Shown piece after piece: positions 1 through 20,020 of a DNA stretch of 64,000 nt (position 1 is its first letter; each line of letters opens with the position of its first letter). A model generated the notes under the pieces. The model was not told the origin of the DNA. It searched no databases and saw nothing but the letters and a program-made list of their open reading frames with translations. Made by a program: the position numbers and the translations under genes. Location of the stretch: positions 1-64,000 of the IMG/VR virus record IMGVR_UViG_3300038427_000656; one strand, written 5' to 3'. This DNA is from a virus.

Positions 1-282
1 TTATTTTCCAAGATACTTTTTGACCCAAGGTGATAGAGGAAATCTATGAGGTTTTGATACTTTTATTATTTGTTCATCTGTGGCTTCTAATGGACTGATT
101 GACCCTCTAAACATAATAAGATACTTATTTTGTCGTTTACCTACAATTATTGCTGGAAGATTATCAAACCCCAATGGAGAATTAGGTCCTGTTAATGGAC
201 CCTTCCCAGTTGTAAGAACAAAATCTCCCACTTTTAAATTTTCACCTTGAAATTCAGTTAATAATGATTTAAGTTTAATCAT
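1..282 (-). CDS. Small unknown protein with capsid-targeting-like N-terminus
   Basis: 93 aa, ATG start at 282, TAA stop at the window edge, so complete. The protein opens with MIKLKSLLTE followed by a basic, compact beta-rich looking body. The first ten residues resemble a T4-type capsid-targeting peptide ending in L-x-E, the sequence type cut by the gp21 prohead protease; similar starts occur in several other proteins of this window. The start overlaps the end of the next upstream gene by 8 bases, so the two are probably translated together. Function unknown; packaging into the head is an inference from the N-terminus and neighbours only. Confidence 0.7.
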   Translation of the reverse strand: MIKLKSLLTEFQGENLKVGDFVLTTGKGPLTGPNSPLGFDNLPAIIVGKRQNKYLIMFRGSISPLEATDEQIIKVSKPHRFPLSPWVKKYLGK

Positions 283-1603
283 AATAGGTTATATTAAATG
301 GTCCTTGTTTTGCCACATCACCGATTGCTTCAAATAAATTACTTCTTCTAGTCGCTAATATTTTTGTTTGTAAATATCTACGCAATGCTGCCAAGTGTTT
401 ACATAAGCCTTCACCATAATCATAAGCTGGTTTTGGTTTTCTATTAATACAACCGCTTAAACTGTCAGGTCCAATATCACTTGCACCTTTTTGAGTATCA
501 TTATAAGCAAATCTATACATGAAATCAGGACAACTACAATCAACTTTACACTCTAAATTCATAGCATCATCACTTCGTTCTACTCTACCTTTTAAGAATG
601 TAATATGACCTTCAAATGGTTCATCAGTTACAGTGGTTTGTGGACTGGATTTATATCTGAAATTCCATTGTTCTAATCCCTCTTCAATACTAACAGGAAT
701 AGAGCGAACTCTTACATTTGCTGCACGTTCTTTTCTTTCAGGAGTTGTTAAAGCTAAAAGTTCTTTATAAGTCATTGTTTCTTTAAGAAATATTCCTTCC
801 TGTAACAAATTTTCAATTCTTCCACTCGTATCATCTCTAATTGTGTCACAATTCTTTTCTATTGCAAAATTCTTCATTGCTTTTATTTTTTGTGGAGAAG
901 GCGGAAATCCTTTTTTATAATTATATGTCAGAATATCACCATCAAAATAACCAACTTTGACAACTCTAACAAATCCCAATTCATACATTCTATTATAAAC
1001 ACCCACATCATCATAATCACCATAAGATAATTTTTTTCCCATATTCTCTAAATAATTTCTTGCCCAATTTGCATGTCCTTCCCACGGAACTCTTTGAAAC
1101 TGTAAATTTGGTTCTAACCAATAATATTCATTCTCTTCTCTTTCGTTTAGAAGAATTTGTTGAACAATTTCTTTTAGAAGCAATTTTAATTCACTTCTTT
1201 TTATCAGTGTAGCATTCTCAAATACAATGAATTTTGGACGCCCAGCGCCAAATGTATTAATTAGTTTTTGATAAAGTAATTGTGGTATGTCATCTTCTGA
1301 TGGCCTTCTATTACCAAATTTTCTAAGTTCATGTGCAGGAAAAACCACAGATATTGTATTCTTTTTAGCATCATACCAACCTCTAAAATAATTTTCTCTA
1401 TCAATACCAAAGTTGATACCATGCGTTTGTCCTTTTTTGTAGCGCAATATGTCATTTTTATAAATCCAACACCAATTTTTCCACGAAATATCTTCACCAT
1501 CTTCATCTGACTGTCCTATTGACCAATAAGAGAGAGCCAATGCTTCTTTTTCAGCATCTGACATATTATCATGATATGATTCCTTAAAAATAAAATCGGT
1601 CAT
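275..1603 (-). CDS. Composite protein: internal targeting-like helix plus SWIM-type zinc motif
   Basis: 442 aa. Three parts are visible. Residues 1-130 form an acidic/aromatic domain of unknown fold. Around residues 134-153 lies a helix KRSELKLLLKEIVQQI, nearly the same as the N-termini of neighbouring proteins, as if a second protein had been fused here. The C-terminal part has CxC at 356/358 and CxH at 401/403 (CSCPDF and CKHLAAL), the pattern of a SWIM zinc finger with a long insertion containing another Cys at 385. SWIM domains usually bind DNA or proteins. The first ATG at 1603 is used; a TATTTATA element lies just upstream. Possible internal head protein cut at the internal L-x-E site; this is inference. 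Confidence 0.75.
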   Translation of the reverse strand: MTDFIFKESYHDNMSDAEKEALALSYWSIGQSDEDGEDISWKNWCWIYKNDILRYKKGQTHGINFGIDRENYFRGWYDAKKNTISVVFPAHELRKFGNRRPSEDDIPQLLYQKLINTFGAGRPKFIVFENATLIKRSELKLLLKEIVQQILLNEREENEYYWLEPNLQFQRVPWEGHANWARNYLENMGKKLSYGDYDDVGVYNRMYELGFVRVVKVGYFDGDILTYNYKKGFPPSPQKIKAMKNFAIEKNCDTIRDDTSGRIENLLQEGIFLKETMTYKELLALTTPERKERAANVRVRSIPVSIEEGLEQWNFRYKSSPQTTVTDEPFEGHITFLKGRVERSDDAMNLECKVDCSCPDFMYRFAYNDTQKGASDIGPDSLSGCINRKPKPAYDYGEGLCKHLAALRRYLQTKILATRRSNLFEAIGDVAKQGPFNITYYD

Positions 1604-1608
1604 ATTGA

Positions 1609-1616: not shown

Positions 1617-1624
1617 TAAAAATT

Positions 1625-2014
1625 TTAAAGGTTAGTTGGAGTAGTTTTAACTATGGAATAATATACATCATTATTTTCACCATAATCATATACATCCTTT
1701 ACTAAAATTCTTAAAATTTTCTCACCCGGTACATGCCATTTTCCATCAGGTGGACCAGCATGTTTTAACCCACCAAGACTGGTAGCTGCAAATACATTTC
1801 CCTTACTACTATGAAGTATAATCAACAACCCTTTTGATATTGGATGAAAAATTGAAAATTGAATTGAATAATCAATAGGTAAACTCTGTACTATTTTCCA
1901 TAGTTCTTCTTCATCATCAGGTATTAACTTTTGTGGAGTTGGTTCACCAAACTGTTCTTTAAAAATACAATATACAATCTCTTTAATAAGTTGTTTAAGT
2001 TGACTTTGCTTCAT
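1625..2014 (-). CDS. Unknown protein with clear capsid-targeting-like N-terminal helix
   Basis: 129 aa, ATG at 2014. It begins MKQSQLKQLIKEIVYCIFKE, the clearest N-terminal example of the recurring K-x-S-Q-L-K-x-L-I-K-E-I-V helix; the L-I-K-E tetrapeptide would suit cleavage by a T4-type prohead protease. The remainder is a small alpha/beta domain with no family I recognise. It follows the terminator of the fibre/methyltransferase cassette and starts the downstream group ending at the window edge. Possible packaged internal protein, by inference. Confidence 0.75.
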   Translation of the reverse strand: MKQSQLKQLIKEIVYCIFKEQFGEPTPQKLIPDDEEELWKIVQSLPIDYSIQFSIFHPISKGLLIILHSSKGNVFAATSLGGLKHAGPPDGKWHVPGEKILRILVKDVYDYGENNDVYYSIVKTTPTNL

Positions 2015-2738: not shown

Positions 2739-3596
2739 TTAACCTAAATTTTTTTTATTTATAGCCACAAATCTCATAGTACTTTTATGATTAAGTATAT
2801 AATCTTTTAAATCAGTAAAAATTCTTTGCCTAAAAATATAACTTGGAAGAGAATTTTGGTCATACAAAAGACCTGTAGTATAAAAAATATAATCCTTTTG
2901 AGGTATATAATCACATAATTTTTCTATATTCCAACCAAGTTCTATACATTCATTTCTATGTGTTTCAATAAATAAATCTACAGCATCGTTTGATAATGTT
3001 TCTTGAGCTTTTTCAAGTATTGGTACTTCGTATCCCTCTACATCTATTTTTATTAAATTTGGTTTTATATTATTTGATTTAACAAAATTATCTAAGGTAT
3101 CAATATTAACTTCATGTATTTTAGCATTTTCAGGATTACTATTAATCTCAGCATCAGACACTTTAAAGTTTGGGTCGTTTGTAAATCGTGCCATATTAGT
3201 ATTGTGATAATAACATTTTCCAACATAATTATTTAACCCAATTGGATGTGTACTTAAATTCCAATTATTTAATTTAGCAGTATTTTGTAATCTCTCACAA
3301 TGAGAACGAATAGGTTCTATTGAATAACATCGATGGTCTTTTACTAAAGAACAATATACCGAAGAAACTATTCCACAATATGTTCCAATATCAATAAAAA
3401 CACTCGGAGAATTTTCTATACAATATAATTTAAAAGCTGTCATTTCAGAAACTATTTCTGGGTTTGAATTCCAGATAGATTCTGGTCCCACTTCAATACA
3501 CTTATACCGTCTATGCCATTCATAAATATTATCGTCCATTTTCCATTCTACACCATGTACATTCGCTATTTTCATAATTTTTGATTTATATTCCAT
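2739..3596 (-). CDS. FkbM-family methyltransferase
   Basis: 285 aa from the ATG at 3596; the frame is open to a TTG at 3656, but that overlaps the capsid-gene terminator, so the internal ATG is preferred. Visible FkbM features: an SAM-binding motif FIDIGTYCGIVSS, then SIEP, and the characteristic IDTLDNF followed by NLIKIDVEGYEVPIL. FkbM enzymes are SAM-dependent O-methyltransferases, often acting on sugars. It lies between the major capsid gene and a fibre gene, inside a segment bracketed by a 24-bp repeat, so methylation of a virion glycan or of host surface sugar is plausible but unproven. Confidence 0.88.
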   Translation of the reverse strand: MEYKSKIMKIANVHGVEWKMDDNIYEWHRRYKCIEVGPESIWNSNPEIVSEMTAFKLYCIENSPSVFIDIGTYCGIVSSVYCSLVKDHRCYSIEPIRSHCERLQNTAKLNNWNLSTHPIGLNNYVGKCYYHNTNMARFTNDPNFKVSDAEINSNPENAKIHEVNIDTLDNFVKSNNIKPNLIKIDVEGYEVPILEKAQETLSNDAVDLFIETHRNECIELGWNIEKLCDYIPQKDYIFYTTGLLYDQNSLPSYIFRQRIFTDLKDYILNHKSTMRFVAINKKNLG

Positions 3597-3645
3597 AGAT
3601 ATCAAAATTCTACAATAAAATCTAAACAAGAATGAAATAAAATTA

Positions 3646-3669
3646 AATAAATGCAAAAGAAAAGAGCCG
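3646..3669. repeat. 24-bp direct repeat, copy 2
   Basis: Identical to 2044-2067. It overlaps the terminator after the capsid gene and the possible upstream extension of the methyltransferase frame. Confidence 0.8.
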
Positions 3670-3713: not shown

Positions 3714-5561
3714 TTATACCGTGTCCAAATCGGCAATGTAAATCTTGCCATAGAATTCAGGACGAACAATCTTCTTCGCGTAACGGGTCATTACACCACG
3801 TCTTGGCGTGAAGTTCACAGGGTCATACACTAACGGTGTCTGAACCAATGGAATGTATGGAGCATATACTGCACCAGTTTCCAAGAAGTTATTACCACGG
3901 AAGCCCATTAGAATGATATTATCAGTCATATATGGGTTCTTGTAAACTTGGAACCTTGAAGCAAATGAACCAACCCTTGAAACGCCCATAGCAAACTTTG
4001 CTTGGTCGCCATCGGTATTCACTACGAATCCCGGAATAGATTCAAGAACAGTTGCCACTGTTGGGGAGATAACCATGAAGTTAGCACCACCACGAAGCGT
4101 CAATTGGTGAATCCTGTTGGATACCTTTTGAATCTTGTTACCAAGAGTTTGGTACCATGTTGCCTTGGTGTAGTAACCACCAGTACCTGCCGTTGTTGTT
4201 TGAACGAATTGGTAAGTACCAGTTCCAGTAGGAACTATTTCCGTATTAAGCCTTGCACTCCAACGTTCAATATTGATAGGTAATACTGCGTTAATCAACA
4301 TATCAAGAATTTCAAGGTCAATTTCCATTGAAACATATTCAGACAACAGAGCAGTCAATTCTGCTTCTGCGTCAATGCTATGATAAGCATTCAAGTCTTG
4401 AGCAAGTTCAGGAGTCCAGACAGCTTTCAACTTACGTGTCTTAGCTACGATTGGTTCGGAGTTAAGTTGCAAGTTTACTTCTGGAATACCGATATCCTTG
4501 TTAAGACCAGTATCAGTAGTTGACTTACCTGTTCCATAAACAAATCCCGTATCAGTACCAGTAGCATTAGCATTGTTTGGATTATCTTCGAAGTCACCAC
4601 GGTCTTGTGGGCTTGGTTGAACTGTGTAATAAATATTACCAGTGAAGGAACCAGTAGCACCAGCCGAAGCTGATAAGACAAACTGGATTTCACCAACCTG
4701 AGCACCACCAGCATCGATACCAGTACCCACTACAAATTTTGTAAATGGTGGGAAATACATAGGACCGGAGCCGGCAGCACTACCTGATTGAAATGAAGCA
4801 GTTAGCCCTGCTGTAGATCCAGTAACAATGCTATATGGCATGAATGAACGAACAGCTAATGGGTCAAACGGATTACCTTGACTAGTCGTAGTACTATAAA
4901 AATTTGAAGTTTTAAAAGTAATAAGCTGATTGTTATTAAACGATGCTGAAATACTATTCAAAATTCCTTGTACTGAACCAGATGAGGCATATTGAGTATA
5001 ATAATTAGCCAACCAGTCAATATCTTCCAATGTTGATGTAGCTGCACTAAATGTTACTGCAGTTGCAGCTTTTTGATTAATGGTGTAACCATATCGGCCT
5101 GCGCCGTATAGACCACCGCCGAATGTATCAGTAGAACCTAGTTTAGCACCAGTACCACCGAACAATGATTGATAATATGAACCTGATGTATCGGCAGGAT
5201 TACCACCGTGAGGTGAGCCATACTTGAAATCCAAGTAGAACACAAGACCAGATGGGAGGTTCATAGGCTGAACGGATACGAATTCCTTCGCAGCAAATTC
5301 AGCAAATACACGTCTGACCAACGGGAGAGCTACGCCAGCCCACTGTTCAGAGTTTGCGGAAGTACCAGTAGCAGTTGCTTCTTCAATCAGTTGTTTAGCC
5401 TGATTTTCGAGCAAGACCGACATATTGGACTTCTCAATATCACTCTTAATACCATCAAGAAGACCGGTTTTATCCCACTTGGTCACAAGACCACGGGTTT
5501 CCTGCATCAAACGAGCTTGAGGATTGAGAGTGTTTGTTAACAATGATTTAATATTTTCCAT
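3714..5561 (-). CDS. 23: Major capsid protein, T4 gp23 type
   Basis: 615 aa; T4 gp23 is about 521 aa. The N-terminal ~65 residues form a helical propeptide ending near QLIEEATATGTS, a good gp21-type L/I-x-E cleavage site. The following region AGVALPLVRRVFAEF and VSVQPMNLPSGLVFYLDFKYG matches the conserved gp23 start (VQPMN-P-G-VF). Near the C-terminus GGANFMVISPTVATVL is also gp23-like. A glycine/serine-rich stretch in the middle probably corresponds to an enlarged insertion domain. The gene follows the scaffold gene and ends in a strong terminator, as expected for the most abundant late protein. Confidence 0.95.
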   Translation of the reverse strand: MENIKSLLTNTLNPQARLMQETRGLVTKWDKTGLLDGIKSDIEKSNMSVLLENQAKQLIEEATATGTSANSEQWAGVALPLVRRVFAEFAAKEFVSVQPMNLPSGLVFYLDFKYGSPHGGNPADTSGSYYQSLFGGTGAKLGSTDTFGGGLYGAGRYGYTINQKAATAVTFSAATSTLEDIDWLANYYTQYASSGSVQGILNSISASFNNNQLITFKTSNFYSTTTSQGNPFDPLAVRSFMPYSIVTGSTAGLTASFQSGSAAGSGPMYFPPFTKFVVGTGIDAGGAQVGEIQFVLSASAGATGSFTGNIYYTVQPSPQDRGDFEDNPNNANATGTDTGFVYGTGKSTTDTGLNKDIGIPEVNLQLNSEPIVAKTRKLKAVWTPELAQDLNAYHSIDAEAELTALLSEYVSMEIDLEILDMLINAVLPINIERWSARLNTEIVPTGTGTYQFVQTTTAGTGGYYTKATWYQTLGNKIQKVSNRIHQLTLRGGANFMVISPTVATVLESIPGFVVNTDGDQAKFAMGVSRVGSFASRFQVYKNPYMTDNIILMGFRGNNFLETGAVYAPYIPLVQTPLVYDPVNFTPRRGVMTRYAKKIVRPEFYGKIYIADLDTV

Positions 5562-5603
5562 ATATTGTTTTTTCTCTATTTTTATTTTTTGCTCACTAGA
5601 TTA

Positions 5604-7196
5604 TTACTTCTTTTCAGGAGTAGTAGTCTTCGGTGTATCTTTGATTCCAGCGAGCTTCTTGAATCTAAGAGCCATCTCATTACCTTCAGTAATTAACTTG
5701 GAAGGTTTTGTTGATGACACCGGCTTTGATGCGAATCCTTCGGTAATTTGCTTAACTTGTCCCTTTTGCGAAACCGGTTTTACAACCGATTTTACAGAGT
5801 GGGTTTTTGTCATTTGCGTACCGAAATTCAAGGACTCCGCCAATAGGGCGTAGGCCAGCTTGACTTCACGAACACTTTTTGTTAGGTCAAATGATTCAAC
5901 GATTTTCATACGATATGAATCGTCCAAAACACCTGCGAATTCTTTAAACAACTTGTTCGTGTAAAGTAGTTTAGCATTCAACAGATTGACCTCATTAATT
6001 TGTCCACGGAGGAATTCAATGGTTTTATAGGCTTCTTTCAAAGCAACCCTGTATTGAGATGCTTCTGCCATTGGTTTACCTGTTTCAGACCCACTACCAA
6101 TGTTGCCTTTACCTTGAATATTATGATTTTTACCCGGTAGCTGTCTCTTACTAGCATCTGGACCGGGTGGATAACCCTTTACACCACCGGTTTTGTCCTG
6201 ACCAGCAAGTTCTTTGGTTGGAAGACCTTGATTTTGTAAGGCTTCATCCATTTCTTCATACCCTTCTTCTTCCTCTTCTTCTTCGCCTTCTTCATTAAGA
6301 GCGGCGAGTAATTCATCTAGATTGATATTTTCTTCATCTTCTGCAGCTCCAACAGGTTCTTCAACCGGTTCTTCAGCAGGTTCTCTAACTGGTCGCCTAC
6401 TTGCTCCACCAGCATCCATAGCTGTTGGGGGGACTGTATCAGCTCCCGGTTCAGCTTCTGGTTCCGGTTCAAGATTAATATCAACTTCACTACCCGGTTC
6501 TGCTTCAATATTGGCAGCAGGTTCTTCGTCACCAGTAACGGGTTCTCTTTCATCACCAGTAACAGGCGATGACACTCCACCACTATCTTCTGGTGCTGGT
6601 GTTAGTTCTGGAGCAGCAGGTTCTTCTTCCGTTCTACCTTCTTCTTCCTCTGCTACTTCATTTTCCAACTCTGCAATAATTTCATCTAAATCTTCCGAAG
6701 TTAGACCAGCTTCTTCAACCCTACCCTCATCTTCCTCCTCGCCCTCTTCTTCCCTTCTACCTTCATCTTCCTCTTCGGCAGTTTCATCCATTTTCTTCCT
6801 ACCTTCATCTTCCTCTTCTTCTTCTTCGGCAGTTTCATTAACTTTCTTACCGAGTTTAGGAACGCCTGTTGGGCCTAATCCAGCTTGAACGGCTTTAAAA
6901 TCCACATCACCGGCGCCACCTTTTGGTGTTTTGGGATTACCTTTAGAAACGGCTTTGGTTGCTGGTCCCTTAGCTTCTCCACCACTTCCATGAACCTGAT
7001 TTGGAGCTTCTACTTCCTGTAGTCCCTCTTCTTGGTCTTCTTCTTCTTCGGATTCCTCTTTTAATTTGTCGGCAAACATTGCCTCAAAACGGGGAGCGAA
7101 GGCTTCTTCAAGAGCGGCTTTAGCATTGGCGAGAGCAGTGGCTCTTACTGCCTTAGCATCAGCAATCGCTTCTTTCAATAGTTCACTATTAATCAT
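5604..7196 (-). CDS. 22: Prohead core scaffolding protein, gp22-like, with acidic expansion
   Basis: 530 aa, about twice T4 gp22 (269 aa). Residues 1-45 form an Ala-rich helix beginning MINSELLKEAIADAKA. Residues ~50-320 are extremely rich in Glu, Pro and Gly, with repeated EEEDEGR blocks. The C-terminal third contains YKTIEFLRGQINEVNLLNAK and LLYTNKLFKEF, typical of gp22-type scaffolds, and a region with LDDSYRMKIVESFD. It sits directly before the capsid gene, the usual gp22-gp23 order. The protein would fill the prohead and be destroyed by the protease; the very long acidic insert is unusual. Confidence 0.88.
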   Translation of the reverse strand: MINSELLKEAIADAKAVRATALANAKAALEEAFAPRFEAMFADKLKEESEEEEDQEEGLQEVEAPNQVHGSGGEAKGPATKAVSKGNPKTPKGGAGDVDFKAVQAGLGPTGVPKLGKKVNETAEEEEEEDEGRKKMDETAEEEDEGRREEEGEEEDEGRVEEAGLTSEDLDEIIAELENEVAEEEEGRTEEEPAAPELTPAPEDSGGVSSPVTGDEREPVTGDEEPAANIEAEPGSEVDINLEPEPEAEPGADTVPPTAMDAGGASRRPVREPAEEPVEEPVGAAEDEENINLDELLAALNEEGEEEEEEEGYEEMDEALQNQGLPTKELAGQDKTGGVKGYPPGPDASKRQLPGKNHNIQGKGNIGSGSETGKPMAEASQYRVALKEAYKTIEFLRGQINEVNLLNAKLLYTNKLFKEFAGVLDDSYRMKIVESFDLTKSVREVKLAYALLAESLNFGTQMTKTHSVKSVVKPVSQKGQVKQITEGFASKPVSSTKPSKLITEGNEMALRFKKLAGIKDTPKTTTPEKK

Positions 7197-7423
7197 AAAA
7201 TTGTTTTCTTTGTTTTCTGAAGTTATTTGAACTCCAATGAAGTTTACGTTTTTGAATACGTGGCAGCAAATAGAAATTACTGCATTTCTGTAATATAAAT
7301 AGTATTATATTTTCTAAAATACAAAAAATTTTATTAAATAATAAAATTCTATTATGAAATGAAACTATATCTTACCTTAAAGAAACTGATATTTAACTAA
7401 AATTATGTAATATTTATTTATGT
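7197..7423. promoter_or_regulatory. Divergent intergenic control region
   Basis: 227 bases without a gene between the minus-strand scaffold gene and the plus-strand island; very AT-rich. It holds a TATTTATA element on the minus strand (7294-7301) and TATTTATT on the plus strand at 7411-7418, 6 bases before the ATG at 7424. It is the only place in the window where transcription diverges. Confidence 0.6.
7294..7301 (-). promoter_or_regulatory. TATTTATA element upstream of scaffold and capsid genes
   Basis: Coding-strand TATTTATA about 100 bases before the scaffold start at 7196, in the divergent region. The most plausible late promoter site for the scaffold-capsid unit. Confidence 0.45.
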
Positions 7424-8203: not shown

Positions 8204-8204
8204 T

Positions 8205-8507
8205 ATGATTAAACTTACAGAATTATTAAAACATATTGTTAGCGACGAACGTGATAAAGGATTAACTCCGGTTGATAATTGGAAAGCAACCGATGCTATG
8301 TATCTTGAAGATATGGGTTTTAAAAATGATGGTATGTTTTATTATGCTCTTAAAAGACCAGAAATGAGATTAAGCCATAAAAAAGGCACAGGTTTTATTA
8401 TTGAAGATAGAACAAAAAAAGAAAAACGAACATTCCTAAAATTTAAAGACCTTGAAGAATATTTTGCTAATTATAAGCAAAAATGGGAAAACCGGCCCTA
8501 TTTATAA
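8205..8507 (+). CDS. Unknown small protein
   Basis: 100 aa, ATG immediately after the preceding stop (TAATATG arrangement), overlapping the next frame by 25 bases, so clearly part of one operon. It starts MIKLTELLKHIVSDE, loosely like the targeting helices found elsewhere in the window, followed by a small charged alpha/beta domain. No family recognised. Confidence 0.72.
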   Translation: MIKLTELLKHIVSDERDKGLTPVDNWKATDAMYLEDMGFKNDGMFYYALKRPEMRLSHKKGTGFIIEDRTKKEKRTFLKFKDLEEYFANYKQKWENRPYL

Positions 8508-9295
8508 GACATATGAATGGCGATTGGAGCCCAGCTGAAAAAGATCCACAACTTGATACTGATATCAAGAGATTAACGGGCATTGACAGAAAAAAAGCTA
8601 TTATCGATAAAATTTGTCCTTTCTGTCATAAACCTGTAGATGTGAATAAATTTCGTGATGAACAAAGTAGAAAAGAATTTAGAATTAGTGGTCTTTGCCA
8701 AAACTGTCAAGATAAAATGTTTGGGAAAGAAGAAGAAACCGAAAATCTTATGAAAGAAAATTTAGAAGTACAAGAGTTTAGTCTAAAGAAAATTGTTGAA
8801 AATTTATCCAATATTCCCAGAGATGGTGGTGCTAGATTTGGTGATGAAGTTAAAAAACTTTCCCCACAACAAAAAAAAGAATTGATGGAGAAGGTTAGCA
8901 AATTCAACGAATATGGAAAAGTTTTACGATGTGAAACGGCTTTAATGGAAATGGCAAAAAATCTTTCTGAAATTGGTCAAATGGCAGAATCTTACGCTAT
9001 GACCGAATCTGGTGATTATTTTCAAGCCGAAGTTGTCAAAAGAGATTTTAATGAAGTAAAAAAGATTACCAAAGATTTTTCAAAACGAGCCAAAGAATGT
9101 TACGGTGGTCTTCAGCAATTAAATGCTCTTTACGAAGATATGGGTAGAAAAATGGAAAGATATTTTGAAATACAATCCTTGGACGAAATTGCTTCTGCAA
9201 TTCCACAACAAGAAATTTCAGCACCTGCTCCAAGAATAGGTGAAGTATCGGATGAAGAAGAAAGTCTTACCGAACAACACTTAAAAAAAAATTAA
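8483..9295 (+). CDS. Zinc-ribbon protein, probably the N-terminal part of a frameshifted gene
   Basis: 270 aa. Residues 45-80 contain CPFC, then FRDEQSRKEFRISGLC and QNCQ, giving a four-cysteine zinc site of a kind I recall from other phage proteins. The rest is helical, with a coiled-coil-like middle. The frame ends right after a run of nine A (9283-9291). In the -1 frame, reading continues without a stop as KLNEVGETTRSGRTPLDV and on into the next frame. So this is either the 5' part of a gene using slippage, or a gene broken by a homopolymer miscount. An ATG at 8513 is an alternative start. Confidence 0.75.
   Translation: MGKPALFIRHMNGDWSPAEKDPQLDTDIKRLTGIDRKKAIIDKICPFCHKPVDVNKFRDEQSRKEFRISGLCQNCQDKMFGKEEETENLMKENLEVQEFSLKKIVENLSNIPRDGGARFGDEVKKLSPQQKKELMEKVSKFNEYGKVLRCETALMEMAKNLSEIGQMAESYAMTESGDYFQAEVVKRDFNEVKKITKDFSKRAKECYGGLQQLNALYEDMGRKMERYFEIQSLDEIASAIPQQEISAPAPRIGEVSDEEESLTEQHLKKN
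9283..9291 (+). other. A9 slippery run, candidate frameshift site
   Basis: Nine consecutive A just before the stop of the zinc-ribbon frame. A -1 shift here joins 8483-9292 to the open frame ending at 9891, giving one protein of roughly 470 aa. A-runs of this length are known sites of -1 ribosomal or transcriptional slippage, and also a common place for sequencing error. Confidence 0.55.
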
Positions 9296-9357
9296 ATGAA
9301 GTTGGAGAAACGACAAGAAGCGGCAGAACTCCATTAGATGTCAATCATATTGTAGAT

Positions 9358-9891: not shown

Positions 9892-9916
9892 TATCTACTT
9901 AATTTGTAGTATTATT
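9889..9916. terminator. Possible weak bidirectional terminator between convergent genes
   Basis: Imperfect stem of TAATATCTAC with GTAGTATTA and an AT-rich loop, placed exactly where the plus-strand operon and the minus-strand accessory operon meet tail to tail with only 7 bases between stops. The stem has a bulge and is AU-rich, so this is tentative. Confidence 0.3.
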
Positions 9917-12822: not shown

Positions 12823-13166
12823 TAGACAATATTTTCGTGTAATTCCTTTTTATGATTTTTCAATAAACGAATTTTCGCTTTCTGTTTCCATTGGTCTGCT
12901 TGTAATTGCCATAATAACTGTAATTCATAATCAGATGCATTCCAATAATCATCAAGTTCTCTAATTCGTCTTTTCAATGCATGTAATACAAGTTTTTCAT
13001 GAACATATTTACCATTGATAAACCGACAATATTCACAATCACATTCCTTCCGCCAGCATTGGTGTGTATGGCGATTTCGTAAAATTAAAAACAAACGCTC
13101 GATGGTATCACCCAATCGAGCGTCTGCTTCTTTTTGAATTCTATTAATTATTTGTTGAGGCGTCAT
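12822..13166 (-). CDS. Unknown protein with Cys/His cluster
   Basis: 114 aa, ATG at 13166, inside the end of the upstream gene (overlap 23 bases). Residues 35-50 hold HQCWRKECDCEYCRF, a dense Cys cluster that may bind zinc. The remainder is helical and basic. A 9-bp inverted repeat (13095-13103 with 13115-13123) falls in the codons for residues 15-24; it may be chance or an internal RNA hairpin. No family recognised. Confidence 0.7.
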   Translation of the reverse strand: MTPQQIINRIQKEADARLGDTIERLFLILRNRHTHQCWRKECDCEYCRFINGKYVHEKLVLHALKRRIRELDDYWNASDYELQLLWQLQADQWKQKAKIRLLKNHKKELHENIV

Positions 13167-13548
13167 CAGGTTTGGTTTCTGCTGTTGGCTGAGCGCCGCC
13201 CTTTACCAATTCATACAATTTACCCCATTCACCTTTTTCAGTAGCATTTACTACTGTGTTTTCAATCTTGGTTAGTTTTTCATCCAATTTCTTCTTGGCT
13301 TCAAATGCTTTTGGAGAAAATGTTTCATTTCTACTACCATCAGCGTTTATAGCTACTTGGTCTGGTTTAGAAGCCTTGCGAGCTTCACGGAGAGTTTCTT
13401 CCGATAACTTAATGGCTGCAGCAAGAGCATCAGCTCGTTTAATTACTTCAGCATTAACTAATTTCTCCACAACTGTATTAACTACTTTATCAGAACCGAA
13501 TTTTTCAATTTGTTCTGCCACTGCTATGTTTATTGATTTTGGTGTCAT
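13144..13548 (-). CDS. Unknown helical protein
   Basis: 134 aa from the ATG at 13548 (MTPKSINIAVAEQIEKFG); a longer reading to 13587 would begin with non-ATG and overlap the promoter, so it is rejected. Mostly alpha-helical and charged, with a Thr/Ala/Pro C-terminal tail. Preceded by a good sigma-70-type promoter, so probably expressed early. No family recognised. Confidence 0.7.
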   Translation of the reverse strand: MTPKSINIAVAEQIEKFGSDKVVNTVVEKLVNAEVIKRADALAAAIKLSEETLREARKASKPDQVAINADGSRNETFSPKAFEAKKKLDEKLTKIENTVVNATEKGEWGKLYELVKGGAQPTAETKPDDASTNN

Positions 13549-13587: not shown

Positions 13588-14109
13588 TTATTTAATTTCT
13601 TTAAACGGCGGCGGACACAACATATCAACAAATTTCATTACCTTTTTATAAACTTCATCCTCTTTAGTAAAGCAATATTTTTTGGTTGCAACTTCATCAA
13701 TCCAATTTCGTAAGTCGGTTCCAAATTCCTCACTTCTTGCTTTAATATCACAGCAAAATTCTGCCAAATATACATCAGGCATTTCTTTAATGCCACCCGG
13801 CCAAGCTTCGGGGTGATGTTTATTTGTAGAATTATGATGATGAATTGCCAATTTCATTTTCAATTTAGCAACATCTTCTACAGGATTTCCAAGAGAAAGA
13901 TATTCCCACTCTATACCAAAAAATTTAGATGCATCGTGTACCATTCCATTAGCAACCAAATTTCTAGCTAATTCCACTTCACCCAAAGCCAATAATTTTT
14001 CTGCTAATATTACGCAATTATCTTCCACATTGCGAATATGTCTCGCAATTAGGCGAATTTTTTCCATCGTTTTTTCAGCTTCCTTGCGGAGCCGTTCGGT
14101 TCTTTTCAT
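13588..14109 (-). CDS. DUF5662-like protein with HD-type histidine motif
   Basis: 173 aa. The region MVHDASKFFGIEWEYLS and then AIHHHNSTNKHHPEAWPGG matches the HD-SK...HH-N-HHPE-W pattern of DUF5662 proteins common in phages; the His/Asp set could bind a metal like an HD hydrolase. Activity unknown. It overlaps the NADAR gene by 35 bases and is transcribed with it. Confidence 0.8.
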   Translation of the reverse strand: MKRTERLRKEAEKTMEKIRLIARHIRNVEDNCVILAEKLLALGEVELARNLVANGMVHDASKFFGIEWEYLSLGNPVEDVAKLKMKLAIHHHNSTNKHHPEAWPGGIKEMPDVYLAEFCCDIKARSEEFGTDLRNWIDEVATKKYCFTKEDEVYKKVMKFVDMLCPPPFKEIK

Positions 14110-14539
14110 CTTGTAACTCTTTTCTTATTTCCATCCAAAGAATACCCAATCTGTTTTTTCCAGAACCATCACCACCATCAGCCCAATATCTATCCTTGAA
14201 ACTATGTTCAACAATTTCTGCATCTCCAGTAGAAAGTAAAAGCTCCTTAATTTTAGGATATTGTGCAATTTTAGCTAATAAAGCATCTTTCATAATGCTT
14301 TCTTTGACTTGTTCCCAATCAACTCTTAAAGGACGATTCCTGTCACGTCCTATTTCAGCAGCCGCTCGCGGGCCTTTGGCAAGCCTTACATCTTCTTCGT
14401 GTTCAGTTCCAGCGAATTTCTGTGATTGGAAATAATGCTCTGTAGTAGGCCACACTTTACCTTTCAAAACAATTGGATGTCTTGAAAAATTGGAAAAATC
14501 TCCATAAGGTTCTGCTATTCTATAGAATTCAATTTTCAT
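14075..14539 (-). CDS. NADAR (YbiA/RibX-like) N-glycosidase
   Basis: 154 aa from ATG 14539; the longer frame to 14599 crosses a strong promoter, so the internal ATG is used. Conserved NADAR features are present in order: YGDFSNFSRHPIV, WPTTEHYFQSQKF, LAKGPRAAAEIGR, RVDWE, YWADGGDGSGKNRLG and a final LWMEIR. NADAR enzymes cleave N-glycosidic bonds; members remove ADP-ribose from guanine or act on NAD-derived or riboflavin-precursor substrates. In a phage, reversal of host ADP-ribosylation defence is a reasonable hypothesis. First gene of the accessory operon. Confidence 0.9.
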   Translation of the reverse strand: MKIEFYRIAEPYGDFSNFSRHPIVLKGKVWPTTEHYFQSQKFAGTEHEEDVRLAKGPRAAAEIGRDRNRPLRVDWEQVKESIMKDALLAKIAQYPKIKELLLSTGDAEIVEHSFKDRYWADGGDGSGKNRLGILWMEIRKELQDEKNRTAPQGS

Positions 14540-14548
14540 AATAAAAAT

Positions 14549-14577
14549 ATAATACCACAAAATTCGCGGATTGTCAA
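14549..14577 (-). promoter_or_regulatory. Strong sigma-70-type promoter for the accessory operon
   Basis: Perfect TTGACA (14572-14577), exactly 17 bases, then TATTAT (14549-14554), with the NADAR ATG 10 bases beyond the -10. The best host-type promoter seen in the window; suggests early expression by unmodified host RNA polymerase. Confidence 0.75.
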
Positions 14578-14638
14578 TGAAAAGATAAATCTTATCCATT
14601 TAACGGCAATTAATGTTAAACTGAATATTTTGAATATA

Positions 14639-15904
14639 TTAAGAAGGATTCTTTGAACTAACAGGAGGTAGATAACGTTTAACAAACGGTTGTAATTTTT
14701 GAGTAAGGTCCACATTTCTTGCAGTATATTTACCAGCTAAATCCCAAGGACTCATACCTTTTTCTGATGGTAATGGTTCGTTTGGATTGGGCATATCAAT
14801 ATGACCCGGTTTTATTATTTGACCCCATATTTGTTTAGCCTTTTCTGCTGTTCGTTGAGCTGGTGGTACTTGATTCCACATTTGTCTAGCCGTCATTACA
14901 ATTTGTTGTCCAGCAGGTGTTTGACTCCAATGTTGAGCGGTTTTTGTTCCAAAAGGAGTATGCAATCCAGCATATCCAACCAAAGCGGCGCTTGCTAATG
15001 CTTTCCATTTATTACTAATTTCATCTTGTCGAAATTGTTCAGAATAAATTTCTCTGACAATTTCTTTAATAATAAATTTTAATTCTGACCTATTTACTTT
15101 CTCTTGTAACATTGAACTAGTTGGTTCGTATTTCCACACTGCTGTATTCCAATGCCCTAATAATTTGCGAAAATCATTTTCATTATAACAACATATTTGT
15201 CTTGGAAATTTTTTCTTTGTAGGAACATGTTCTTCTGTGTAGGGGAAAATTTTCATACCCGGAGGACACTTTTCTTTTTTTAGGTCAATATGACAATATG
15301 TTACACCATATTCTTTATAATATTTTGGTTCCTTTTTTGTTATAGGGTGTGAAATCCATCTATCATCTGCACCTGCCCATCCTTGAGCTTCTTGTAATTT
15401 TCTGTATTCTTCCCATATTCCTGCCCCACCTTCATCCTCTATCATTTCCCTAGCAGTTTCTATAGCTTGACGAATAGCAGCTTCATAATTATTCTCCTTT
15501 AACACTTCTTCTATTGCATCCAATCCATTTGCAAATATAGCAGTATCAGCTAAATCTGCTGATAATAATCCAAGTCTTCTTTCTAAAACGGTATCTATTA
15601 ATTTTACACCAGTTTGTCTATCTCCGACTTCTTTTCGCCATTTTTCAATTGTAGCAACACTTTTTGGAGATATTGCTTCATTCAAATCATTTTCAAAAAA
15701 TTTTGGTTTTTCTAATGGATTTTGTTTTTTATGTTTAATATCCCAAGAATGTTCAGCCCATGCACCACAATTTAAACATTGATATCCTTTTTTTCCTTTC
15801 CATGTAATATCATTAGCAGTACAATTACGAGATAACCCATTTTCAAGTAATTTTGCCTGCTTTATAATTTCTGAAATTATCAATTTTAATTGTGATTTCT
15901 TCAT
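14639..15904 (-). CDS. Two-part protein with N-terminal and internal targeting-like helices
   Basis: 421 aa. Starts MKKSQLKLIISEIIKQAKLL and repeats the same kind of helix at residues 270-289 (NRSELKFIIKEIVREIYSE), so the protein looks like two targeted units in one chain. Unit one has a CLNCGAW-type Cys pair (C43, C46) and further Cys/His later (YCHIDLKKEKCPPG, ICCYN). Unit two is helical then Pro/Gln-rich, with repeated TPAGQQI and PAQRTAEKAKQIWGQ. No enzyme family recognised. Candidate internal head protein that the prohead protease would split in two. Confidence 0.75.
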   Translation of the reverse strand: MKKSQLKLIISEIIKQAKLLENGLSRNCTANDITWKGKKGYQCLNCGAWAEHSWDIKHKKQNPLEKPKFFENDLNEAISPKSVATIEKWRKEVGDRQTGVKLIDTVLERRLGLLSADLADTAIFANGLDAIEEVLKENNYEAAIRQAIETAREMIEDEGGAGIWEEYRKLQEAQGWAGADDRWISHPITKKEPKYYKEYGVTYCHIDLKKEKCPPGMKIFPYTEEHVPTKKKFPRQICCYNENDFRKLLGHWNTAVWKYEPTSSMLQEKVNRSELKFIIKEIVREIYSEQFRQDEISNKWKALASAALVGYAGLHTPFGTKTAQHWSQTPAGQQIVMTARQMWNQVPPAQRTAEKAKQIWGQIIKPGHIDMPNPNEPLPSEKGMSPWDLAGKYTARNVDLTQKLQPFVKRYLPPVSSKNPS

Positions 15905-16205: not shown

Positions 16206-16835
16206 TTATTCAATTTCAGTTAAAATATCTCTTACAATATTCTCAACCCTTTCCCATTTTTGGGTAATTGGATTTTGAATAGTGGTTTTAACACCTTCCT
16301 GAAGAGTACCCGATGGAAACATGAAGGCGCCCCTTGTACTAGGATTTGATACAAAATCAAACGCTATAAGTTCAAAATCATCTTGAACCACATCTGCATC
16401 TTCATTTATACTTTTATTGACTGTTCCCAATCCACGACTGGAAATTCCAAGTCGAATATTGGCTTTAAATAATTCCTTTAAAATATTTCCATTTGGAGTA
16501 GGTAAAACTTCAACAGTTCCCATAAGGTCATCACCTTCCCAATGTAATTCTACAACATTATGAGACACATTTTGTAAGTTTACAACTGAGCTTTCTGGAT
16601 GGTCAAGTTCTCCCAATGCTCTTCTTTCTTTTACAAAGTTTTCCTCATATTTTTTTGATTCACGAAAAAGTACATCTTTCTTATATAGCCTACCGTTTTG
16701 ATTTTTTATATTTGCTCGTTGTAAAATACCCTTGACAACCAATCGTCTTCCATCAGTACGAATAGCTTCTTCAAAGAGATTATCTTTGATAAATTCAAAG
16801 GTTATACAATCAACTAATAATTGTTTAGTATTCAT
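16206..16835 (-). CDS. 21: Prohead protease, T4 gp21 type (peptidase S77)
   Basis: 209 aa, similar to T4 gp21 (212 aa). Visible catalytic surroundings: GELDHPESS with His79, and LGISSRGLG with Ser132/Ser133, the expected His/Ser pair of this herpesvirus-like serine protease family. The enzyme matures the capsid by cutting scaffold, capsid and core proteins after L/I-x-E and then destroys itself. Located between portal-linked genes and candidate targeted cargo genes, which fits its role. Confidence 0.94.
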   Translation of the reverse strand: MNTKQLLVDCITFEFIKDNLFEEAIRTDGRRLVVKGILQRANIKNQNGRLYKKDVLFRESKKYEENFVKERRALGELDHPESSVVNLQNVSHNVVELHWEGDDLMGTVEVLPTPNGNILKELFKANIRLGISSRGLGTVNKSINEDADVVQDDFELIAFDFVSNPSTRGAFMFPSGTLQEGVKTTIQNPITQKWERVENIVRDILTEIE

Positions 16836-16836: not shown

Positions 16837-17967
16837 TTAAACGTTCCATCCTATCTCTTTAACATATTCCAAGAGATAATATCTACCATTTTTAACTATA
16901 TCAACCGAACCTTTCGAATATTGGCCATAATACGTTTGTCGTCTCATAGCATCAATTGCAGCCAATTTTATATCTCTGTTATCTATATTATTTATCATAT
17001 GATTTTCAGGAATCAATAACTGGTACTTGATTTTGGTAGTATTTACATTTTCAGCTAATATTTTTGATGTTTTCTTTATATAAGGAAGAAAATTAACTTT
17101 TCCATTTTCATCTTTTATACTATCAGACATAAATTCTACAAGAAATATATTTAAATCTTTTTGAATCCATTCAGCTACAGGTGGAAGTTTCTTTTTCTTT
17201 TTACGATGTGGAATCTCCGGTTCTGGTTCTGCCAGCGATGGCTCTGCTGGAGCTGGTGCTTGTTTTGGCACCGTTTGTTGTGGAGCCATTGGTGCTGGCT
17301 CTTGAGTAGGAACCATTGGAACAGCCTGTGGTGGTTGTTCTTCTGGTGAGGGTGCTGATGGAGATGCTACATTTGGTTCTTCTTCATCACCAGCTTTTGG
17401 TGGTTGTTCCGCTGGTTGTTCTTGTGGTGGAACTTCTGGACCTGCTATTGGTTTTTCTTCTGCACCCGGAGCAGGTTGAGAACCTTCACTTTCAATTTTA
17501 ATATTTATACCCGGAGTTAAAAAGTATTTCTTATCATTTTGGTCGGTTGCTATCACCACATAATCCTTATACCAAAATTCTACACTAATTTTCTTAATAT
17601 TTTCTATAGTGTAATCGGTTTTTGGTTGTCCATAACCGCGTGAAGCATTAGCAACAACAGTTTTGTTCAAAAGTCTTTTGTTCATTTTATCCAAAAGAAC
17701 CTTCTTAGCATCAGATTCAGCCTTGTTCTTTTTATCCTCAAATGCCCTAAAATCACGAGTGAAATCATATTCCGATGGGTCTTCCGGTTCAGGTGATGTT
17801 TCTGCAGGTGGAGGGGTTGGTGGTACCTCTTCTGCCGCAGCACCGCCTGCGCTCATACCTGCGGGAAGAACAGGAGCAGGCACAGGAGTAGCCGGGCTTG
17901 CCATTGGTGGCTGTGGAGCCTGTTCAGTTAAATTCAACAAATTTCTTAATTTAATTTTCTTACTCAT
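16837..17967 (-). CDS. Pro-rich candidate prohead core protein with targeting-like N-terminus
   Basis: 376 aa. Starts MSKKIKLRNLLNLTEQAP, ending in L-T-E like a protease-cut leader. Residues ~15-60 and 165-255 are very rich in Pro, Ala and Glu (for example EEQPPQAVPMVPTQEPAP). A small domain at ~75-165 contains SEYDFTRDFRAFEDKK and VVIATDQNDKKYFLTPG; a C-terminal domain at ~260-376 includes PVAEWIQKDLNIFLVEF. The gene directly precedes the protease. Probably a head or core component. Confidence 0.75.
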   Translation of the reverse strand: MSKKIKLRNLLNLTEQAPQPPMASPATPVPAPVLPAGMSAGGAAAEEVPPTPPPAETSPEPEDPSEYDFTRDFRAFEDKKNKAESDAKKVLLDKMNKRLLNKTVVANASRGYGQPKTDYTIENIKKISVEFWYKDYVVIATDQNDKKYFLTPGINIKIESEGSQPAPGAEEKPIAGPEVPPQEQPAEQPPKAGDEEEPNVASPSAPSPEEQPPQAVPMVPTQEPAPMAPQQTVPKQAPAPAEPSLAEPEPEIPHRKKKKKLPPVAEWIQKDLNIFLVEFMSDSIKDENGKVNFLPYIKKTSKILAENVNTTKIKYQLLIPENHMINNIDNRDIKLAAIDAMRRQTYYGQYSKGSVDIVKNGRYYLLEYVKEIGWNV

Positions 17968-17968
17968 A

Positions 17969-20020
17969 TTACTTCACCTTCTCTAAAATACTTTCTACTA
18001 CTTTAAATCCTAACTTTTTAGTTACATCTAATGCTCTTTGACTACCACTTTTCTTTTTAGAAAATGCAAATGGTGTAGCATATCCAGCTATAGCACCCGT
18101 TGCTGTCATTTCCTGAATATTTTCTTCTTCCTCTGGAGGAAAATTTCTAACTGTTTTAAGAGTTGGTACAAATTTCTCTTGCTCTTCATCCCATACTTCA
18201 AAAGGATTATTTATACCATGAAATCTTATAAATTTTCTTTCCCATCTTGGTGGCCCCAAAATAATTTCAAACACAATATCAGTAGGAGTAATTTTATATA
18301 ATACTTTAATATTTTCAATATTTCCTACAGGGACCTTAAAAAATCTAGAAGCTGCATTTCTTACTTTTTTAATTATAGAATAATCCATTCCTAACCTATG
18401 GAGTCCTGACCTATGTATTTCTTCTAATTTTTTTCTCGATTCCAATTCTCTTGCTTTTAAATATTTTTTTAAATCTCCCACGGTTTTTACTGTACCACCC
18501 TTTATTTCATTCATAATTTGATTTTTAACAAATTCAATATCTGCATCTTTTAGTCTTGGATTATGTGCTTTTATCAAATCAAGCATCATATTTATGTTAT
18601 CTTGTGTTATCTCTATTTTCTCCCACTCACCACCACCAGCGTAAATGTTAGAACCACGGTTAATTATACGGTTTAATAACATATAAATAAAAGCAATACC
18701 CCCTACTGCGGCAGCCGTAGTCAAACCTACACCAATTTCAGAAAGACCAGAAATTCTTTTTGACCTAACACCACTTTCCATATCATCTTGATACTTTCCA
18801 TCAGGACCGATTTTTTCTCTTATTTTCTTTTTAAACACATATGGAGTAGCATATCCACCAACTGCACCCATTTGTTCCTCATAATCTTCTGGTTCAATCG
18901 GTTCATCCACATCTGCTTGAGTATATGGTCTAAGAATTTCTGGACGATATTTTGATAGTTTCTGCTTTCTACATTTATCACACGCTCTTACCAAAGGAAT
19001 ACCCTGACCATCACGTTCCCATTTACTAGGTAATCCACTACCACAGTCGCATGTTCTTTCCTCATTTTCTTCTGCAACGTTCACAGCTTTCATTGTGCCA
19101 CCAAGACCCACATCAGCTGCTAAGTCGGCTCTCGTAGTCATTTTTTCATGAATAATAGGAGTAGCAGATACTTTTCCATTTACAGAACCATCTGGTCCAA
19201 TTATTACTTCATCACTGGCAAATCTACCACCCGATTTAGTCATAATAACATTTATAGTTCTGTCACTTATAGGCGACGTAGATTTTATATGATACCCTCT
19301 CCTTTCAAAATGATTAACTGCTCTTGTTTGTGATGATGTTTGTTTACTCAATTCATGTAAAGAAACTCCACGTTCAGAACCTCCAGCGCCACCACCAACA
19401 AAACTAAGATATTTACTAAGATTTATATGTGGCTCATTAATACTTCCATCTGGTTTTATATTTGCAACTCTTGTTACTGGACTACCAAGCTTCCCTTTAT
19501 GTCTTATGAGAATTATACCTACGCCATCTGATGTTGGATAAGTATTTCTAAGAATAAATCCTATTTTTTTCAATGTGTTAATAGCTCGTTTCTGAGTTAT
19601 TGTAGCTTGATGAATATCTGGACCAACACCAAGTATCTCATTCAATATAGCTTTTTCTACCATATTTTTAATCCGAAATTTAAGATGTAATTTTTTTTCA
19701 ACAATAGAAAAATCTAAACCTCCACCCGTAAGGCTCATAGGAATATCAGATGCAGCCTTTCCAGTCACAGAACCATTAGGATTTACTAATGCTTCTTCAT
19801 GGCCATATTTTCCACCCGATTTATCCATAATAACTATTACAGTTTTACCTGTTGTATCTGCAGGCATTGTGGATGTAACACGATAATTAAGTTTTTCCAA
19901 ATATTGCACAACTCCCTTCTGTTGTGGTGTTTGTTTATTTAACTCACTAGGAGAAACCCATCGTCCTAATTGTTCTTCAACCACATTTTTAATCAATGAT
20001 TGGAATTGAGATTTTTTCAC
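17969..20020 (-). CDS. Large repeat protein with zinc site and one membrane-like segment
   Basis: 683 aa, GTG start at 20020 giving MKKSQFQSLIKNVVEEQLG. Three copies of a ~60-residue domain at about 32-90, 138-198 and 228-288: each has Q-K/R-A/G-V-N, a strand such as VIVIMDKSGGKYG, and NPNGSVTG or a close variant. At 324-350 CDCGSG and CDKC form a four-Cys site followed by LSKYRPEIL and DVDEPIEPED, a module I recall as a separate small phage protein. Residues ~429-452 are hydrophobic. The motif GYATPxxF occurs twice (389-396, 646-653). Candidate head-packaged or core protein; function unknown. Confidence 0.78.
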   Translation of the reverse strand: MKKSQFQSLIKNVVEEQLGRWVSPSELNKQTPQQKGVVQYLEKLNYRVTSTMPADTTGKTVIVIMDKSGGKYGHEEALVNPNGSVTGKAASDIPMSLTGGGLDFSIVEKKLHLKFRIKNMVEKAILNEILGVGPDIHQATITQKRAINTLKKIGFILRNTYPTSDGVGIILIRHKGKLGSPVTRVANIKPDGSINEPHINLSKYLSFVGGGAGGSERGVSLHELSKQTSSQTRAVNHFERRGYHIKSTSPISDRTINVIMTKSGGRFASDEVIIGPDGSVNGKVSATPIIHEKMTTRADLAADVGLGGTMKAVNVAEENEERTCDCGSGLPSKWERDGQGIPLVRACDKCRKQKLSKYRPEILRPYTQADVDEPIEPEDYEEQMGAVGGYATPYVFKKKIREKIGPDGKYQDDMESGVRSKRISGLSEIGVGLTTAAAVGGIAFIYMLLNRIINRGSNIYAGGGEWEKIEITQDNINMMLDLIKAHNPRLKDADIEFVKNQIMNEIKGGTVKTVGDLKKYLKARELESRKKLEEIHRSGLHRLGMDYSIIKKVRNAASRFFKVPVGNIENIKVLYKITPTDIVFEIILGPPRWERKFIRFHGINNPFEVWDEEQEKFVPTLKTVRNFPPEEEENIQEMTATGAIAGYATPFAFSKKKSGSQRALDVTKKLGFKVVESILEKVK

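Follow-up and report, generated by a model that had tools for sequence, protein, structure and literature searches.

Proteins of an uncultured giant phage carry short, recurring N-terminal leaders which, as judged from sequence comparison, most probably target them to the prohead and would be removed there by the gp21 protease, while internal copies would act as extra gp21 sites, some of the cargo being made as polyprotein. A 365-kb phage record (G026) contains the window analysed here (64,000 nucleotides) as an identical 64-kb stretch. We found two leader classes, A with the form MKKSxLKx(L/I)IxE(I/V) and B with the form MIKLKx(L/I)(L/I)xE, both of which preserve the φ-x-x-φ-φ-x-E spacing (φ, hydrophobic residue) of the T4 capsid targeting sequence (CTS) MKTYQEFIAE. 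Hydrophobic residues at T4 positions 4, 7 and 8 and E at position 10 are matched in the same register by class B and with an offset of two by class A.

The strong N-terminal copies reported in the initial annotation were located at 2014 (MKQSQLKQLIKEI) and 15904 (MKKSQLKLIISEI), together with the two internal ones that it had placed in 275-1603 (IKRSELKLLLKE) and 14639-15904 (VNRSELKFIIKE), and all four contain L/I-x-E, as it had claimed. We could also confirm its looser starts at 282 (MIKLKSLLTE), 17967 (MSKKIKLRNLLNLTE), 20020 (MKKSQFQSLIKNVVEE, GTG start) and 8205 (MIKLTELLKHIVSDE); those at 282 and 8205 belong to class B, which is widespread too. The proteins at 8205 and 17967 lack the strict spacing form, and the missing E at the key place of the 8205 leader counts against the proposal. 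In addition, a third and weaker internal copy lies at residues 109-128 of 17969-20020 (KKLHLKFRIKNMVEKAILNE). After rechecking letters and coordinates, all copies are on the minus strand except that of 8205-8507. Written as a degenerate DNA pattern, the strong form gave 2 matches in the window versus 0.00 in 100 shuffles. Since the leaders at 2014 and 15904 show many synonymous differences, their likeness is at the protein level, and copying at the DNA level was rejected. The helix is thus real and larger than initially reported, and gp21 is encoded where the annotation had it (Table 1).

Table 1. Leader copies, modular proteins and head genes in the window (↓, aligned or putative cleavage place).
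Feature	Position	Strand	Remarks
Class B leader MIKLKSLLTE of the 93-aa protein 1-282	253..282	-	
p442, 442-aa modular protein	275..1603	-	N module, internal leader, WW-like module, second junction, SWIM-like C-terminal module (SWIM match below the Pfam cut-off)
Second φ-x-x-φ-φ-x-E junction IENLLQE, p442 residues 263-269	797..817	-	directly before the SWIM-like module
Internal class A leader IKRSELKLLLKE, p442 residues 134-145	1169..1204	-	
129-aa predicted head cargo protein	1625..2014	-	class A leader MKQSQLKQLIKE at 1979-2014
Major capsid protein (Gp23)	3714..5561	-	Pfam Gp23, E 9.3e-72
gp22-like scaffold	5604..7196	-	starts MINSELLKE↓A; assigned solely from its place in the gene order, Pfam giving no match
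100-aa protein	8205..8507	+	class B-like leader MIKLTELLKHIVSD without E at the cleavage place
270-aa protein	8483..9295	+	residues ~124-235 share homology with the bodies behind class B leaders; at 8750-8803, a leader-like stretch (MKENLEVQEFSLKKIVEN) matches the N-terminus of the G005 homologue
p421, 421-aa predicted modular cargo protein	14639..15904	-	class A leader MKKSQLKLIISE at 15869-15904
Internal class A leader VNRSELKFIIKE, p421 residues 270-281	15062..15097	-	
gp21 prohead protease, Peptidase_S77	16206..16835	-	Pfam E 8.7e-27
p376, 376-aa protein, T4 gp67/gp68 position	16837..17967	-	leader MSKKIKLRNLLNLTE at 17923-17967; L-x-E present
p683, 683-aa modular core protein, gp67/gp68 position	17969..20020	-	leader MKKSQFQSLIKNVVEE at 19973-20020
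p683 C-terminal TGAIAGYATPFAF module	17972..18109	-	after NIQE↓M
Internal leader of p683, residues 109-128	19637..19696	-	aligns with the leader at the N-terminus of the homologue in G005

By comparison with T4, the prohead targeting proposed in the initial annotation is well supported through the shared spacing, the co-occurrence with gp21, a matching putative capsid cleavage site and near-exclusive N-terminal use on unrelated proteins. The T4 IPI, IPII, IPIII and Alt CTSs cut by gp21 are, like the leaders here, short and N-terminal, IPII and IPIII have the same φ4-x-x-φ7-φ8-x-E10, and in both systems a common leader precedes otherwise unrelated bodies with gp21 (S77) in the same phage. In the excerpted text of PMC9026906, residues 4 and 7 of the T4 CTS target and residues 8 and 10 direct processing, and the IPIII leader is sufficient for packaging a foreign protein; according to a passage of PMC3012670, the T-even internal proteins form a highly diverse defence set in which only the CTS is conserved. 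In the capsid protein, LIEE↓A (residue 61) lines up with FLTE↓A, at which the T4 protein is matured, and the aligned sites read LIEE↓A, LISE↓A or IVSE↓A. We infer that the amphipathic stretch of 10-16 residues with φ-x-x-φ-φ-x-E would bring a protein to the prohead's scaffold core and dock it there, and that gp21 would cut after E and free the cargo, which may stay with the DNA and enter the next host.

Several features set the leaders here apart from known systems. They read MKKSxLK or MIKLK where T4 has MKTYQEF, and one genome holds two leader classes, internal copies in modular proteins and roughly 20-30 candidate cargo genes. In SPN3US (phiKZ-type), inner head proteins lose N-terminal propeptides through cleavage after E by a diverged gp21 relative (excerpts of PMC5694885 and PMC9026906), but several of the propeptides described there exceed 100 residues, with one of 20, and the cleavage motif is A-x-E instead of L/I-x-E. 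The core proteins of T4 are each cleaved more than once to give several fragments, as a part of PMC9026906 states; p683 differs from gp22, gp67 and gp68 in consisting of repeated and swapped modules in a row and in having two leaders.

Within G026, 35 of 565 genes fit the spacing pattern, compared with a mean of 5.3 and a maximum of 13 in 500 shuffles. In the first 40 kb, the strict pattern, which was chosen after the motif had been seen and applied to greedy ORFs, fits 16/43 genes versus 0.54 expected from shuffling. The initial annotation had asked whether the motif is equally common in non-virion proteins; at 20-64 kb of the window a single gene out of 40 fits the strict pattern, namely TerL, which is not known to be a virion protein. 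A strict leader is found in only 4 of the 12 G026 genes related to leader bodies from IMG/VR. Because no terminal repeat of at least 25 bases was found in G026, the adjacency of 0-40 kb to 335-365 kb by circularity is putative.

Beyond this genome, leader A was found in at least 118 IMG/VR stretches versus 1 for a permuted pattern, and it begins at the first in-frame ATG in 110/122 among the matches listed. Across 84,980 genomes of bacteria and archaea, leader A had a single match, an internal one. The permuted class B control was also numerous (at least 100 matches), so that the number of class B matches is no evidence by itself; many of the control matches are a single internal stretch, MLKIxELKxIMGFP, of one conserved protein that we take to be DNA-methyltransferase-like. 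We therefore used this control only for position (first ATG in 26/100 among the matches listed) and gp21 association (3/50), and the evidence for class B is of these two kinds. gp21 is encoded on 25/50 class A and 27/47 class B contigs (52/97 together, fragments included), compared with 4/24 random and 3/50 permuted-pattern contigs (7/74 together), and 9 leader contigs of at least 60 kb are without gp21, phrog_207 and Gp23. Single linkage at E 1e-3 sorts the 218 class A and B leader proteins among the matches listed into 113 body families, and in two of these families both classes occur; A and B are interchangeable N-terminal leaders. In named phages, tblastn with a 21-aa consensus leader gave no match, perhaps owing to the shortness and low complexity of the query. 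The leader strings did not occur in the literature text searched, a statement confined to that text.

The cytidylyltransferase T4-GC190, detected by MS in S-SM1 virions according to an excerpt of PMC3037559, has a leader-like start (MKKFSAFLNE↓A), which could be chance since the pattern is not enriched in S-SM1 (2/221 genes versus a null of 1.8), and a leader looked for in T4-GC15, the other newly found core protein, was not found. There is no enrichment either in the part of HTVC008M that was read (1/75 versus 0.7). The pattern also fits TerL, a false positive, and the UvsX of HTVC008M, and 5 of the 10 T4 matches are not known head proteins and likewise count as false positives.

The internal copies are placed where modules were added or swapped, and the domains of p442 and p683 are shuffled at putative cleavage sites; such copies would be leaders buried once modules were added in front. 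All relatives of p421 and p683 found in IMG/VR are 100% identical and hence the same phage. A relative, G005, served for the more distant comparison; its homologue has an N-terminal leader that aligns to the internal one of p683. The earlier polyprotein idea stands in part: shuffled modules meet at the internal copies, whose cutting is a prediction. Alternatively, they may go unprocessed, as fusion scars or as internal starts giving a second protein, a reading that is possible but the less likely one. An in-frame ATG a few codons upstream of the p421 copy and the internal starts annotated for T4 genes 17 and 21 fit internal initiation, but the first codon of the copy is not ATG, GTG or TTG in p442 or p421, and the only two φ-x-x-φ-φ-x-E sites of p442 both fall at module junctions. 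AlphaFold gave no confident model of the SWIM-like module of p442 (mean pLDDT 40.3).

Other explanations concern the leaders as a whole. They could be assembly or docking helices kept on the protein, for instance as coiled-coil contacts in late complexes, with no targeting or cleavage; this is improbable. The motif is amphipathic, E is missing at 8205 and at the first p683 site, and few leader bodies have a known function (21 Pfam families matched over 113 members). Against it, starts with MIKL[KR] (10/13 from G026) have E10 in 10/13 though it was not selected for, and L/I/M7 with I/L/V8 in 13/13, the capsid protein has the same φ-φ-x-E at its aligned cleavage site, and leaders are associated with gp21 contigs. 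The enzymes able to act early in the cell among the predicted cargo would also suit an address tag for another compartment, such as a phage nucleus, or for host complexes. We consider this very unlikely given the T4 spacing, the leader genes between those for portal and capsid (p376 and p683 lie between portal and protease, the place of T4 gp67 and gp68) and the similar N-termini of head core proteins, namely the gp22-like scaffold (T4 gp22 has MLKEQLIAE↓A) and gp21 of Flavobacterium phage immuto (FKGLLTE). Finally, K-, I-, L- and E-rich starts are common in AT-rich genomes, but a chance origin is scarcely credible and was rejected on the shuffles, the permuted leader A pattern and the absence of MIKL[KR] starts from random loci (0/3528 frames).

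Prohead targeting thus being the preferred reading, the same short head tag is probably carried by dozens of unrelated proteins in this giant phage and many relatives, which would pack them with their DNA and deliver them into the next bacterium. Among the predicted cargo are an Acb1-like 2H phosphoesterase encoded at 4438-5310 of G026, GNATs, Mom, a CCA/poly(A) polymerase, a lysozyme and a serine hydrolase. The case is evenly balanced for a general T4-like addressing system, in which interchangeable tags of 10-16 residues serve more than 100 unrelated families and the repeated addition of tagged modules has given some prohead polyproteins, from which gp21 would release several proteins for injection. 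If so, a 10-residue pattern would predict which hypothetical proteins of T4-like phages are carried in the head and are first into the host. Metagenomic sequence would yield a catalogue of early-acting effectors, with the Acb1-like, Mom, GNAT and nucleotidyltransferase proteins as candidates, and packaging tags beyond the T4 CTS would become available. T4-like injected cargo would also be testable in cultured relatives such as immuto, in which a relative of the p683 TGAIAGYATPFAF module comes straight after an N-terminal leader.

The helices that recur in the window's proteins are best read, and in our judgement very probably so, as head-targeting leaders of the T4 capsid targeting sequence (CTS) type. 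All four strong copies, like the looser variants, were recovered where the initial annotation had placed them, and the strong-form pattern matches twice in the window (0.00 expected). When leaders A (MKKSxLKx(L/I)IxE(I/V)) and B (MIKLKx(L/I)(L/I)xE) are aligned with T4 IPII and IPIII, which start MKTYQEFIAE in the T4 record, both share phi-x-x-phi-phi-x-E (phi, hydrophobic). Class B (MIKLKxLLxE) has the T4 register; in class A (MKKSxLKxLIxE) the T4 spacing is displaced, two residues later. In the T4 CTS, residues 4 and 7 are described as directing targeting and 8 and 10 processing, with gp21 cutting after L/I-x-E (PMC9026906).

The window is positions 1-64000 of a 72,375-base virus record and has a 100% identical counterpart, over its full 64,000 bases, at 359626-295627 in G026. 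This IMG/VR record of 365,299 bases comes from the same phage, and we read it whole. The phage is T4-like: its gp21 is a Peptidase_S77 (see table), Pfam places the terminase (Terminase_6N, E 4e-16), the portal (Portal_T4, E 1.8e-67) and the capsid protein (Gp23, E 9.3e-72) in T4 families, and the T4 order terminase, portal, gp21, gp22-like protein, gp23 is kept. Leader genes 17969-20020 and 16837-17967 occupy the position of T4 genes 67/68, and leader gene 14639-15904 sits between gp21 and the gp22-like gene.

We then counted proteins whose N-terminal residues carry this spacing in a strict form, chosen after the motif had been seen. Among 565 greedy ORFs of G026, 35 carried it; when the N-terminal residues were shuffled 500 times, the count averaged 5.3 and never exceeded 13. 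They concentrate at 0-40 kb (16/43, 0.54 expected), and the 340-360 kb bin, which contains the window's first 20 kb, holds 3/27 (0.34 expected); in a region picked post hoc (>335 kb and <31 kb) there were 18/70 versus 17/495 elsewhere (Fisher P 5e-9). At 20-64 kb of the window only 1/40 genes has it, namely TerL, likely a false positive; terminase is not known to be a virion protein. In T4, 10/275 genes have the strict form (null mean 3.2, maximum 9): five are IPII, IPIII, gp24 (which is annotated as gp21-cut), gp2 and 61.1 (MKTFKEFIKE), and five, named by position, are mrh, mobB, a-gt.5, I-TevIII and rnh, which are not known to be head proteins; IPI and Alt are missed. T4 gp61.1 (L532 18966-19130), with this CTS-like start, is annotated as hypothetical. 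Two stretches of Flavobacterium phage immuto gave 7/52 (null 0.4) and 5/71 (null 0.9), and parts of the genomes of Microcystis phage Mel-JY01 and RM378 gave 2/41 and 3/37 (null 0.4 each). Part of HTVC008M gave 1/75 (null 0.7; the sole match is UvsX), and S-SM1 showed no enrichment (2/221, null 1.8). By these counts, certain T4-like groups have a strong leader system, and in other groups none can be seen.

Leader A occurs in at least 118 IMG/VR stretches; with its residues permuted, the pattern gives 1. Among the matches listed, 110/122 start at the first in-frame ATG. Leader B occurs in at least 120 stretches and its permuted control has many matches too, but among the matches listed the first ATG is used in 132/142 non-edge leader B matches (129 distinct bodies) and in only 26/100 control matches. 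The contigs behind both counts are partly redundant. Conditioning on MIKL[KR] only, in leader A loci and G026, 13 starts (10 from G026) had hydrophobic residues at positions 7 and 8 in 13/13 and E at position 10 in 10/13; random loci gave 0/3528 frames with such starts. Leader A has a single match in 84,980 genomes of bacteria and archaea, an internal one lying 72 codons into its open frame. Among the matches listed, 218 complete first-ATG leader proteins of at least 60 aa formed 113 body families (single linkage, E 1e-3), two of which contain both classes: a family sharing the CWKGYKAYGTKNKGGKEVPNCV stretch (L087 has leader A, L289 leader B) and a DUF5661 family related to L270 (L270 and L287 have leader B, 11 members leader A).

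Leaders also travel with gp21. Among distinct contigs of at least 21 kb from 80 listed loci per scan, PF03420 was found in 25/50 leader A and 27/47 leader B contigs, versus 4/24 random and 3/50 permuted-pattern contigs (the first 50 of 59 qualifying, in list order); the pooled odds ratio is 11 (P 6e-10; P 2.5e-9 once five contigs belonging to the phage of the window are left out). In nine gp21-negative leader contigs of at least 60 kb, phrog_207 and Gp23, both found in the positive control G026, were also not found. One has a T4-type TerL near its end, and another shares an identical serine hydrolase with the window's phage; the other seven would most simply be fragments without head genes. 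In-frame TGA codons within the gp21 matches of the contigs of L021 (G013), L043 (G027), L080 (G049) and control L417 (G148) suggest recoded phages. When six capsid proteins are aligned, the T4 cleavage site FLTE|A is matched by LIEE|A in the window's phage and its relative G005, by LISE|A in Mel-JY01 and by IVSE|A in immuto; RM378 has no such site at this place. Given this placement, the predicted gp21 site of the window's phage is likely phi-phi-x-E, as in the leaders.

Internal copies lie between modules. In p442 (275-1603) the spacing occurs only twice, at residues 139 and 263, each at a module border. In relatives, its SWIM-like C-terminal module comes after a leader-like start (L514, a 207-aa gene), belongs to a 288-aa protein starting MKRQELKLLLKE (L513), or is preceded by other modules (L509-L512); L512 retains an internal leader, KEEFKLFLKE, between modules that at E 1e-3 match none in p442. 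In G005, whose capsid protein is 87% identical, the homologue of p421 (14639-15904) is a leader plus a single core module. In p683 (17969-20020) it is the internal leader that aligns with the N-terminal leader of the G005 homologue, so a leader-bearing front module was either gained by p683 or lost by G005. The last module of p683 comes after NIQE|M; in immuto, a 73-aa protein opens with MKKSQIVKAVQEVLEE|M followed by a related module (49% identity over 45 residues). On these comparisons the internal copies are former leaders or equivalents of leaders.

Predicted features of the window and of G026
Feature	Record	Position	Strand	Remarks
FkbM methyltransferase	window	2739-3656	-	Pfam E 5.1e-14
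RlaP-type nucleotidyltransferase	window	11395-12621	-	head region; Pfam E 5.1e-12
NADAR domain protein	window	14075-14599	-	Pfam E 1e-34
gp21	window	16206-16835		Pfam Peptidase_S77, E 8.7e-27
TerL	window	23278-24891	-	starts MVNQPTLRDIIKEE, fits leader spacing
2'-5' RNA ligase/Acb1	G026	4438-5310		E 6.9e-6 and 1.4e-5, both just below Pfam cut-off; HVT and HLT motifs
GNAT	G026	5322-7064		above Pfam cut-off
GNAT	G026	7066-7668		below Pfam cut-off
GNAT	G026	7665-7994		above cut-off, one GNAT model
Poly(A) polymerase/CCA with HD domain	G026	7991-9478		
Phage lysozyme	G026	9482-10033		
GNAT	G026	12807-13199		above Pfam cut-off
110-aa protein	G026	23640-23972 (L246 3640-3972)		MIKLKDMIPKKYFYHITPRKN..; leader-like, K replaces E10; no match in Pfam search
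Mom	G026	86532-87077		
DUF3846	G026	274168-274488		
Serine hydrolase	G026	284162-285112		

The G026 entries of the table, apart from the 110-aa protein, are matches of leader proteins; most remaining leader proteins scanned there were matchless. Pfam hits to members of the 113 families further include RNase_T, AAA_33/zeta-toxin-like and SprT, and PHROGs hits a 5'-3' deoxyribonucleotidase and a DNA polymerase exonuclease subunit, functions that are not usually expected in a virion. Out of 103 records, the single Mom homologue compared, from Enterococcus phage PMBT2, has no such leader and aligns only from residue 14, so in the case of Mom the leader looks like an addition. Among 12 G026 genes with bodies like IMG/VR leader proteins, 4 have a strict leader (background 35/565), which speaks against a tight body-leader rule; three more (7066, 103555, 339607) have near-miss starts, whereas no leader is seen on another Mom-like gene (56423) or on a HAD-like gene (25632). 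The body of the leader protein at G026 23969-24880 (L246 3969-4880) opens with short W/N/S/D-rich repeats; L336 has a similar one after the leader MIKLKHLIVE.

A single tie to published proteomics emerged: mass spectrometry of purified S-SM1 virions is reported to include the cytidylyltransferase T4-GC190 among 41 proteins (PMC3037559). In GU071094 this enzyme begins MKKFSAFLNEAERS; T4-GC15, reported alongside, has no leader at its start. As S-SM1 lacks overall leader enrichment, this case is suggestive only. On the head-targeting reading, gp21 likely cuts the leaders and injection of the predicted cargo is plausible, while for polyprotein processing at internal copies we see the chances as evenly balanced. 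Head-targeting leaders as a kind are already known; what is new here is the leader classes, how much cargo there is, and the modular internal copies. In the set of papers searched, none has the leader strings looked for.

Close to p421, the NADAR domain protein has no leader; NADAR enzymes remove ADP-ribose and could serve in anti-defence. The FkbM methyltransferase gene is flanked by the capsid gene on one side and leader gene 1625-2014 on the other.
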